Shown piece after piece: positions 38,532-42,136 of a stretch of 64,000 nucleotides of DNA. The translations under genes and the position numbers were made by a program. Positions within the stretch are counted from its first letter, which is position 1. Each line of letters opens with the position of its first letter. The notes beneath the pieces were generated by a model. That model was given only the letters and a program-made list of their open reading frames with translations, made no database searches and was not told where the DNA came from. Origin of the DNA: Dehalococcoidales bacterium (GTDB lineage: Bacteria > Chloroflexota > Dehalococcoidia > Dehalococcoidales > UBA2162); contig JAUYHA010000077.1 in the NCBI GenBank assembly GCA_030690265.1, forward strand, positions 1 through 64,000, in the 5' to 3' direction.

Positions 38532-39110
38532 AAAGGAGAAGGAAAATGTGCGGAATTGAAGGTTCATAATTGACCTGAACTTTTCTAAAAAGACATTTAC
38601 GGTTATTGCGCCGGTAGTGCTGGGAGGCTCTGCCTCTCTCTATACCTCTTCCCCCTCTTCTTTTTAAGGAGAGGGGTTCACCCTGAAGGGTTCAGCCTTC
38701 AGTCCGAGGCCCGAGTTCACCCCGAGGGGTTCTCCGTTCGGCTGAGCTCAGTTCTGGCGACAGTTCTGGTGACATCACTGGAACCATCACTGGAACCATC
38801 ACTGGAACCACGGCGAAGCCCTGAAGGGGACTGAGGGAGTGAGGTAGATACTAAGATTCTTCGCGGAGTTTACACTGAACTCGTTCCGACTTGCCTCGAC
38901 TCGTTCCGATAAGTCAGAGTGAACAAGCTCGGAGCAGGTTACCTGTAGCGAGGTTCGGTAACGAGTTATCGTCTTCAGACCGAGTTCAGACTTCAGGCCG
39001 AGCCTTCAGTCCGAGGACCGAGGTCAGAGTGAACTCGTTCCGATTATCGTCAGAGTGAACTCGTTCCGATTATCGTCAGAGTGAACGAAGTGAACGTGCT
39101 CAGAATGATA
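38532..39110. repeat. 579-base repeat-filled gap with a degenerate composite repeat and two tandem arrays
   Basis: It holds a diverged composite repeat (38620-38844, right end GGGAGTGAGG), then direct and inverted words built from CTCGTTCCGA, CCGAGTTCA and CTTCAG. Two tandem arrays are clear: CATCACTGGAAC three times at 38773-38808, and a 26-base unit containing GTCAGAGTGAACTCG twice at 39023-39074 with a partial third copy. No gene is seen. Confidence 0.75.
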
Positions 39111-40559: not shown

Positions 40560-40647
40560 GGAGAGGTGTCCGAGTGGTTGATGGTGCCGCTCTCGAAAAG
40601 CGGTCTCCGTGTATAACGGAGCGTGGGTTCGAATCCCACCCTCTCCG
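40560..40647 (+). tRNA. tRNA-Ser (anticodon CGA)
   Basis: An 88-base class II tRNA. The acceptor arm GGAGAGG pairs with CCTCTCC, the anticodon stem CCGCT/AGCGG encloses loop CTCGAAA (anticodon CGA), the long variable arm is CTCCGT/ACGGAG, and the T arm is GTGGG/CCCAC. Discriminator G; CCA is not encoded. Its last 18 bases are repeated at 41034-41051. Confidence 0.95.
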
Positions 40648-40744
40648 TTTACCCTTCAGGGAGAATCCTTCAGAGCGAGTCTTCGGGACGAGCCCTTCTG
40701 GGTGAACCCTGAGCGATTTATCCTGAGTCTGCCGAAGGAATGAA

Positions 40745-41032
40745 ATGAGTCGAAGGGCAATAACAGAACAAGAATGGTTTTTCTATATTGGCAGGTGCCG
40801 AGACGATTCCCTGTATTGCGGCATTACAGTTGACTTAGAAGGTCGCCTTAGAGAACATAATAAAGGAATCGGAGCTAAATATACTGCCGTTCGTAGGCCT
40901 GTGACTCTGGTTTATAGCGAAAAGTATGATAGCGCTTCTGAAGCGAGGAAACGAGAGGAGCAAATTAAGGGTTGGTCTAAGATAAAAAAGGAGAACTTAA
41001 TTAAGGGTTTTCCTCGACTTCGCTCGGAATAA
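40745..41032 (+). CDS. Single-domain GIY-YIG nuclease-like protein (first)
   Basis: A 95-residue protein with one GIY-YIG domain: FYIG followed ten residues later by LYCGIT, then the conserved arginine in LEGRLREHN and the glutamate in EARKREEQIKGW. Small proteins of this kind (YhbQ/URI-like) are putative endonucleases of unclear role. The first codons lie in a dispersed repeat (GAGTCGAAGGGC), so the start is uncertain. It begins 98 bases after tRNA-Ser(CGA) and is followed two bases later by a copy of the tRNA 3' end. Confidence 0.82.
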   Translation: MSRRAITEQEWFFYIGRCRDDSLYCGITVDLEGRLREHNKGIGAKYTAVRRPVTLVYSEKYDSASEARKREEQIKGWSKIKKENLIKGFPRLRSE

Positions 41033-41033
41033 A

Positions 41034-41086
41034 CGAATCCCACCCTCTCCGCCAGCCTGCGCTAAAGCTTCGGCTGGCAAGCCGGA
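41034..41086 (+). repeat. tRNA-Ser 3'-end duplication plus palindrome, site 1
   Basis: 41034-41051 is identical to the last 18 bases of tRNA-Ser(CGA), followed by CCA. Next come inverted arms GCCAGCC and GGCTGGC and the core GGCTGGCAAGCCGG (41072-41085). It separates the two GIY-YIG genes. Confidence 0.85.
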
Positions 41087-41092
41087 CTTACT

Positions 41093-41332
41093 ATGTGGTA
41101 TGTATATATACTGATGAGTGCAATGGATAAGAATCTCTATGTAGGTTCAACAAACGACATTAGCCGTCGTTTGAGTGAACACAACTCTGGGAAGGTTGAT
41201 TCTACGAAAAACAGGATGCCATTCAGCTTGGAAGCATATTTTGCTGTTAAAGACCAGCCCAGAGCTATTGAACTTGAACAATATTTAAAGACTGGGTCGG
41301 GGAGGGCTTTCTTGCAAAAACGAATCCTTTAG
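41093..41332 (+). CDS. Single-domain GIY-YIG nuclease-like protein (second)
   Basis: 79 residues of a GIY-YIG domain: WYVYIL, then LYVGSTNDISRRLSEHNSG with the conserved arginine, and the glutamate in AIELEQYLKTGSG. It belongs to a different subgroup from the first copy. No ribosome-binding site is visible; the gene begins six bases after the palindrome of site 1. Its opening ATGTGGTATGT recurs as remnants at 41475 and 42094. Confidence 0.82.
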   Translation: MWYVYILMSAMDKNLYVGSTNDISRRLSEHNSGKVDSTKNRMPFSLEAYFAVKDQPRAIELEQYLKTGSGRAFLQKRIL

Positions 41333-41390
41333 CCATCGAAGCTCTACCTGCCCGCCGAGCTTTGGCAGGCGGGTCAGAGAGCGTAGTTGG

Positions 41391-41437
41391 CCACCCTCTC
41401 CGCCAGCCTGCGCTAAAGCTTCGGCTGGCAAGCCAGC
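41391..41437 (+). repeat. tRNA-Ser 3'-end duplication plus palindrome, site 2
   Basis: CCACCCTCTCCGCCA (41391-41405) repeats the tRNA-Ser end, followed by the same palindromic block as in site 1 and the core GGCTGGCAAGCCAGC at 41423-41437. A separate hairpin with CCTGCC and GGCAGG arms lies just upstream (41347-41370). Confidence 0.85.
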
Positions 41438-41474
41438 AAAAGGAAGATATATGGCTGGACAGGACAGATAAAAT

Positions 41475-41495
41475 ATGTGGTATGTTTATATTTGA
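41475..41495 (+). pseudogene. Remnant of a GIY-YIG gene start
   Basis: ATGTGGTATGTTTATATTTG opens as in the second GIY-YIG gene (MWYVYI) but then meets TGA. It lies 37 bases after the site 2 core, the position the intact gene has after site 1. Confidence 0.6.
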
Positions 41496-41536: not shown

Positions 41537-41926
41537 GTGCTGGGAGGCGTATTAAAAAAATTACGTTATCGGGAAGACCTGGGAGGTGTTGTCTTAAATG
41601 CACCGGCAGCCATTGAGAAAGAGCTGGCAGGGGCGGGTTTGGCAACTGCGTTAGAAGGCAGCTCCAGATTTACCGTGTTATTTGTTAGAAACTAGGGAGA
41701 CTTTGAAAGTAGAATAGAGACAACGCTGGACAGTATTGAGTATGACAGTATTCTGTGGATTGCCTATCCTAAAAGCTCTTCCCCAATAAAAACAGATATT
41801 AATCGCGACAGCTTGTGTGACTTGTTGAAGCCTTATGGCTACAGGCCAGTGGCGCAAGTAGCCATTGATAATGACTGGTCAGCGCTCAGGTTCAGGCCTG
41901 AAGGCGCGGTCAAAACCAGGAAGTAA
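41537..41926 (+). pseudogene. DUF3052-like gene with an in-frame TAG
   Basis: One frame of 129 sense codons is interrupted only by TAG at codon 53 (41693-41695). Before the stop is VLNAPAAIEKEL and FTVLFVRN; after it the same frame continues as ILWIAYPKSSS, INRDSLCDLL and DNDWSALRFRPE, which match the end of DUF3052-like proteins. GTG 41537 has AGGAGA at good spacing. A single CAG-to-TAG change would explain it; readthrough or a sequencing error are alternatives. The true stop is eight bases before tRNA-Ser(GGA). Confidence 0.75.
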
Positions 41927-41934
41927 GTTACTGC

Positions 41935-42056
<122 letters not shown>

Positions 42057-42093
42057 AAAAGTAAGGCTGTACGCTGGCAAAGATAAATAAAAT

Positions 42094-42136
42094 ATGTGGT
42101 ATGTCAAAAAAGGATACCATAAGGAGGTAATATCAA
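42094..42136 (+). pseudogene. Second remnant of a GIY-YIG gene start
   Basis: ATGTGGTATGTC at 42094 repeats the GIY-YIG opening (MWYV) after the same AAATA context as at 41475, then diverges to unrelated codons and runs into the ribosome-binding site of the next gene. Confidence 0.5.

Follow-up and report, generated by a model that had tools for sequence, protein, structure and literature searches.

Single-domain GIY-YIG nuclease genes beside part-duplicated tRNA genes are probable minimal mobile units of bacteria

The window analysed in this study, the whole stretch of 64,000 nucleotides, contains two tRNA-Ser genes, two short genes for GIY-YIG nucleases, and displaced pieces of tRNA-Ser sequence lying among them. 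How the pieces of a tRNA gene came to flank the nuclease genes is the question raised by this locus. An earlier sequence-only reading proposed that each GIY-YIG gene, together with one tRNA end and a palindrome, forms a small mobile unit, and compared the arrangement with integrative elements that duplicate the 3' end of their target tRNA.

The 18-mer CGAATCCCACCCTCTCCG, which extends from the T-loop of tRNA-Ser to the discriminator base, occurs in three exact copies in the window, at 40630-40647 in tRNA-Ser(CGA), at 41034-41051, and at 42004-42021 in tRNA-Ser(GGA), against a chance expectation of 0.00 and 0 copies in shuffles. No further copy was found elsewhere in the window with up to three mismatches. 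As proposed earlier, the second copy is the tRNA-Ser end followed by CCA, but tRNA-Ser(CGA) itself lacks an encoded CCA, and its 3' junction reads CTCTCCG|TTTACCC. What had been taken for a shorter piece at 41391-41405 is indeed a tRNA end, but it belongs to a longer copy, split by a palindrome, of which it forms the second half. This copy consists of CGAATCC (41321-41327), a 64-nt palindromic insert (41328-41391), CACCCTCTCCG (41392-41402), and CCA (41403-41405), and the sequence resuming after the insert is CACCCTCTCCGCCA. Both displaced copies begin at the C of the T-loop sequence GTTCGAATC. Moreover, the last codons of GIYb, CGA ATC CTT TAG, contain the first half of the second copy, and CGAATCC from the T-loop copy, together with TT, encodes the C-terminal RIL of the protein. 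Nested inside the 64-nt insert is a further palindrome (CCTGCCCGCCGAGC...GGCAGGCGGG), and the related loci L066 and L128 carry the outer palindrome alone.

The GIY-YIG genes do lie between copies of the tRNA end, as the sequence-only reading stated; the second tRNA-Ser gene and the two remnants of a GIYb start were left out of that picture (Table 1). The 3' flank of both displaced copies, comprising CCA, the palindrome, and ATGTGGTATGT, matches the flank of tRNA-Ser(GGA) at 42010-42104 and shows no match to the sequence behind tRNA-Ser(CGA). Similarly, the palindrome GCCAGCC...GGCTGGC is also present 3' of tRNA-Ser(GGA). Between the two tRNA-Ser genes, a coding-looking stretch with an internal stop (41537-41925) gave no match in a Pfam search. 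At 40655-40709, within the left end of the GIYa unit, lies a dispersed palindrome that is missing at the corresponding place in the relative G007, and the alignment indicates a clean insertion; several more copies occur in this genome, and approximately six copies at 91-93% identity occur in G025, a genome of another family. A short tandem direct repeat (cagagtgaactcgttccgattatcgt) lies at 39026-39090 near a methyltransferase-like ORF.

Table 1. Features of the tRNA-Ser locus in the window
Feature	Position	Strand	Basis
tRNA-Ser(CGA), intact, without encoded CCA	40560-40647	+	ARAGORN; 3' context compared with relatives
First CGAATCCCACCCTCTCCG copy, inside tRNA-Ser(CGA)	40630-40647	+	Sequence match
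Left end of GIYa unit (TTTACCC...), in place of CCA; holds dispersed palindrome of ~55 nt	40648-40744	+	Alignment
GIYa, gene for 95-aa single-domain GIY-YIG nuclease	40745-41032	+	Pfam PF01541, E=1e-19; dN/dS
Displaced tRNA-Ser 3' end (18-mer + CCA), 1 base past GIYa stop	41034-41054	+	Sequence comparison
Palindrome GCCAGCC...GGCTGGC, between tRNA end and GIYb	41051-41078	+	Sequence comparison
GIYb, gene for 79-aa single-domain GIY-YIG nuclease	41093-41332	+	Pfam PF01541, E=3e-16; model; dN/dS
Second displaced tRNA-Ser 3' end, split copy	41321-41402	+	Sequence comparison
GIYb start remnant (MWYVYI, stop)	41475-41495	+	Sequence comparison
tRNA-Ser(GGA), intact, with encoded CCA	41935-42024	+	ARAGORN; flank comparison
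GIYb start remnant 3' of tRNA-Ser(GGA)	42094-42104	+	Flank comparison

Against PF01541, GIYa scores 70.6 bits and GIYb 59.8 bits (cut-off 22.6), and the active-site residues Y5, Y16, G18, R26, and E62 are invariant in 36 related proteins. The dN/dS values against relatives are 0.11-0.35 for GIYa and, in the pairs where they are computable, 0.06-0.13 for GIYb. Collectively, the invariant active site and the low dN/dS indicate that both genes are maintained by purifying selection as likely active nucleases. The predicted model of GIYb (pLDDT 94.9) corresponds to a bare GIY-YIG fold, for which the nearest solved folds are UPF0213 BH0048 (PDB 1zg2, the best match), Slx1, and I-TevI; the 79-aa model has no separate DNA-binding region beyond the catalytic domain, in contrast to known homing endonucleases. 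The group I intron endonuclease model TIGR01453 gives 25.2 bits, under its cut-off of 56.05. A scan of viral contigs with the first mixed alignment returned no relative. The phage homologues are only distant (36-39% identity), namely ten Rhizobium phage records and one uncultured phage, and at the one such locus inspected there is no annotated tRNA beside the gene. On plasmids, the matches of GIYa stay under 60% identity, and those with a name are ordinary GIY-YIG genes such as yazA.

The comparison of tRNA-Ser genes covered 41 genomes from the same family and order. In most relatives, tRNA-Ser(CGA) and tRNA-Ser(GGA) are adjacent with usually little between them (36 nt in G019). The tRNA and both nuclease genes are not a constant feature of these relatives, for GIYa stands beside tRNA-Ser genes in 6 of the 41 genomes, four times behind CGA and twice behind GGA. 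Encoded CCA was found in 0 of 6 GIYa-occupied tRNA-Ser genes versus 40 of 50 other tRNA-Ser genes (Fisher p = 2e-4). Five of the occupied junctions read CTCTCCG|TTTACCC, and that of G007 reads CTCTCCG|TTCGCCC. The displaced copy behind GIYa retains its CCA in the window, G007, G010, and G006 and lacks it in G035. Because CCA is missing on the occupied tRNA and kept on the displaced copy, the GIYa unit appears to lie between the tRNA and its CCA, with the displaced copy being the old end. Additionally, both copies in G010 carry an identical host variant of the T-stem (CCCGCC), which would fit target duplication better than homing copied from a donor. Linkage of the GIYa lineage to tRNA genes was seen in this clade only.

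Beyond tRNA-Ser, the same layout recurs at many tRNA genes, which supports the earlier proposal that each nuclease gene and its tRNA end form a small mobile unit. With the A2 profile, genes for tRNA-Ser, Ala, Asn, and Pro immediately precede the strongest matches in 301 genomes of the phylum, and most of the top matches have a piece of the neighbouring tRNA behind the ORF. A set of 80 loci, collected by scanning genome contigs for similarity to GIYb alone, spans Bacteroidota, Ignavibacteriota, Patescibacteria, Planctomycetota, Chloroflexota, and others. Within 400 nt, a tRNA is present in 59 of the 80 loci (28 before the ORF and 31 after), on the same strand in 59 of 59, against a background in the same loci of 0.078 tRNAs per 800 nt, or approximately 0.08 per locus. 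As a control, the GIY-YIG gene of UvrC had a tRNA nearby in 0 of 14 loci. In a separately drawn Bacteroidota sample, 26 of 30 loci are tRNA-adjacent and all 26 are on the same strand; the family is carried by 65 of the 198 Bacteroidota genomes sampled (E<=1e-20). Altogether, it adjoins at least 13 tRNA isotypes in many phyla. Since named isolates are among the carriers, for example Roseivirga thermotolerans (L197), the arrangement is not only an artefact of metagenome assembly. Furthermore, the target isotype tracks the nuclease tree across phyla, with 23 changes compared with a shuffled mean of 43.0 (0/200), in a tree built on few columns and with many unresolved forks; its Pro clade spans Chloroflexota, Ignavibacteriota, and Bacteroidota. 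Insertion at tRNA genes that duplicates part of the tRNA, and its recurrence at clade-specific tRNAs, are shown by these loci.

In most of the tRNA-linked loci, a partial copy of the same tRNA lies across the ORF from the intact tRNA. A 5' fragment typically precedes the ORF where the intact tRNA lies downstream, and a 3' fragment typically follows the ORF where the intact tRNA lies upstream; in approximately half of the units it is the 5' part that is duplicated. Based on their truncation and inserts, the partial copies are presumably dead. They are often interrupted by palindromes; of 31 inserts, 21 reach at least 6/7 in a score for terminal inverted repeats. Eleven of the 31 inserts lie at the 3' edge of the D-loop and 4 in the T-loop, and the rest lie elsewhere, mostly at the D-loop or anticodon loop. 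The breakpoints of the copies are spread over several tRNA loops rather than a single site; those of Ser, Asn, Arg(acg), and Gln copies fall at the T-loop sequence GTTCSAWTY. Near-identical units stand in tandem in L163 (three units, 310 bp each), G540 (four or more, 322 bp each), and G486. At L132, ARAGORN calls a tRNA-Thr(tgt) behind the GIY-YIG gene, which is most likely a palindrome-bearing dead copy of tRNA-Pro; relics of this kind can enter annotations as genuine tRNAs.

A filled and an empty site were found within one genus. G158 carries tRNA-Pro(TGG), the nuclease, and a dead copy, and G094 carries tRNA-Pro only. Their left flanks align over approximately 200 nt; on the right, the G158 flank that starts past the dead copy aligns with what immediately follows the tRNA of G094. 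Judged by these flanks, the two loci are a clear filled/empty pair, with the gene located at its apparent target and an empty allele in the relative, the pattern of a SegB-like free-standing homing endonuclease, with which the CCA swap at tRNA-Ser also agrees. The T-stems of the two tRNA-Pro copies in G158 differ, so that the insertion is either old or brought its own part of the tRNA.

No tRNA lies within 400 nt in 21 of the 80 loci, a few of which have split palindromes at their flanks instead. At L169, L172, L173, L182, and L184, tRNA-less GIY-YIG ORFs lie between the halves of a split palindrome (GCCCCGTGGAAT...ATTCCACAGGGC, or CCCCGT...ACGGGGT); by eye, the sequence upstream of L169 and L173 resembles a four-helix-bundle gene (23S IVS-type). 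Another small GIY-YIG type (YYVYILAS...TLYTGVTND) has no tRNA and is often flanked by dispersed palindromes, for example CATTCCGTTGAAAAACGGAATCCAG and GTCATTGCGAG...GAAGCAATC. This type, found at L070, L080, L090, L091, L095, and other loci and on contig C117:162578-162796 of G000, may be the enzyme of those repeats. Inverted repeats surround tRNA-less GIY-YIG genes in 8 of 42 cases versus 8 of 210 control pairs. As this excess is modest, mobilisation of palindromes by the nuclease is kept here as a side hypothesis.

Free-standing GIY-YIG endonucleases at tRNA genes are a kind already known from phages. SegB, a free-standing phage GIY-YIG homing endonuclease in a tRNA cluster, cleaves within phage tRNA genes and causes a unit of tRNA plus segB to be amplified in tandem; the motif published for it is RAWTSGAAC, in a paper in which the words T-loop and T-arm do not occur (PMC13096335). 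SegB of T4/T6 is also treated by Brok-Volchanskaya et al. 2008, as cited in PMC2988022. The complement of the motif, GTTCSAWTY, corresponds to the tRNA T-loop and is present in 120 of the 180 tRNAs collected here. In T4, segB is on the same strand as the tRNAs, 41 nt behind tRNA-Ile and 5 nt before tRNA-Arg, and no partial copies of these neighbours were found there beyond an 8-nt T-loop match. The units described here share with SegB the GIY-YIG family, same-strand adjacency to tRNAs, tandem tRNA-plus-nuclease units, and the T-loop motif. In contrast, SegB has approximately 221 aa rather than 79-95 aa and resides in phages rather than on chromosomes, no palindrome module is described for it, and T4 segB has no dead tRNA copy.

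Other systems resemble the units in part. The single-domain GIY-YIG proteins of the UPF0213/YhbQ-like group (BH0048, PDB 1zg2) have the same fold and size as the nuclease of the units, but we found no tRNA association or mobility described for them. REP elements with RAYT (TnpA-REP) transposases are small palindromes tied to one small nuclease gene and are similar to the units in this respect, whereas RAYTs belong to another enzyme superfamily and are not known to be tied to tRNA genes. Tyrosine-integrase elements at tRNA genes likewise preserve one intact copy of the target while duplicating part of it; however, they need an integrase, while the units have only the GIY-YIG nuclease and duplicate the 5' part in about half of cases. 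With group I intron endonucleases of the I-TevI type, the units share the catalytic domain and a weak similarity to TIGR01453, below cut-off, but an intact, uninterrupted tRNA copy stands beside the ORF.

We consider it probable, at about 0.68, that GIYa and GIYb represent two lineages of minimal tRNA-targeted mobile units whose nuclease probably drives a homing-like insertion. Each unit would comprise a single-domain GIY-YIG gene, a palindrome, a partial copy of the target tRNA, and little more, and would lie inside or against a tRNA gene of the same strand, with the intact tRNA on one side and the partial, presumably dead copy on the other. The nuclease may cut or nick the loops of tRNA genes, at GTT|CGAATC in the T-loop for the Ser units and at the end of the D-loop or in the anticodon loop for other lineages. 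Repair from a unit-bearing donor (homing), or repair with target duplication, would then leave the unit in place. A tRNA gene would make a safe target, as one intact copy is preserved by the unit. The palindromes may later inactivate the dead copy or may mark the cut site. Against this reading count the lack of the extra DNA-binding region of known homing endonucleases, the scatter of breakpoints over several tRNA loops, the 21 loci with no tRNA nearby, and the restriction of tRNA linkage in the GIYa lineage to this clade. We hold more tentatively, at rather less than even odds, the broader view of a new class of minimal bacterial mobile element, a few hundred bases long, whose single-domain GIY-YIG nuclease targets hairpin loops, chiefly those of tRNA genes, in many phyla, and which keeps the host tRNA alive by part-duplication and is linked to the palindromic repeats abundant in these genomes.

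A rival explanation is ordinary tandem duplication and decay of tRNA genes, which would leave the fragments, with the GIY-YIG genes as unrelated passengers; two tRNA-Ser genes do stand side by side here and in relatives, and dead copies decay. Yet the recurrence over so many isotypes and phyla, always on the same strand and with the fragment opposite the intact tRNA, is disfavouring, above all the 59/59 strand rule, and at the tRNA-Pro empty site the gene and the dead copy are absent together, so that this explanation is hardly credible. The 3' ends of tRNA genes are the usual attachment sites of integrase-type islands, and a duplicated 3' end is the mark of such islands, so the units might be their remains, with the GIY-YIG genes left over. 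It was here that the sequence-only reading, in likening the locus to integrative elements, did not hold: the locus has no att logic of the integrase type, duplication begins in the T-loop, a palindrome splits the second copy, and the layout is not specific to tRNA-Ser. The frequent duplication of the 5' part also speaks against island remains, as do the small size of the units, a few hundred bp with the nuclease as the only constant gene, and the lack of an integrase among the ORFs read around the window locus, where, with four ORFs searched against Pfam and the remainder named by eye, two nucleases and ORFs of USP, isochorismatase, and MFS type were seen. We regard such an origin as very improbable.

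A hairpin-targeted mechanism on single-stranded DNA deserves more weight, although we judge it unlikely. According to this explanation, stem-loops are the substrate of the nuclease, so that both tRNA genes and REP-like palindromes serve as targets, and the hairpin loops take up insertions of palindromes as well as of nuclease genes. Single-domain GIY-YIG enzymes of Neisseria reportedly act on single-stranded DNA at repeats. The terminal inverted repeats of 6 or 7 of 7 in 21 of 31 inserts agree with it, as do the position of most inserts within a tRNA loop or at its edge, with the D-loop 3' edge the site of 11, and the palindromes that often flank tRNA-less GIY-YIG genes. However, these genomes are rich in palindromes, which may insert at any site, and the dispersed palindrome in the GIYa unit of the window was inserted near the base of a stem, not in a loop, as read by eye.

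Our literature search, which had most subscription journals and all preprints outside its coverage, returned no description of such units on bacterial chromosomes. As far as we found, the bare domain, the palindrome-bearing dead tRNA copy, and the spread across bacterial phyla are new. If the reading of GIYa and GIYb as tRNA-targeted mobile units is true, they would rank with the smallest autonomous bacterial mobile elements, with carriers making up about one-third of the Bacteroidota genomes sampled, and would account for partial tRNA copies that annotation software may mistake for real tRNAs. Such units would reshape tRNA genes and would provide a link among phage SegB homing, the evolution of tRNA genes, and orphan REP-like palindromes.
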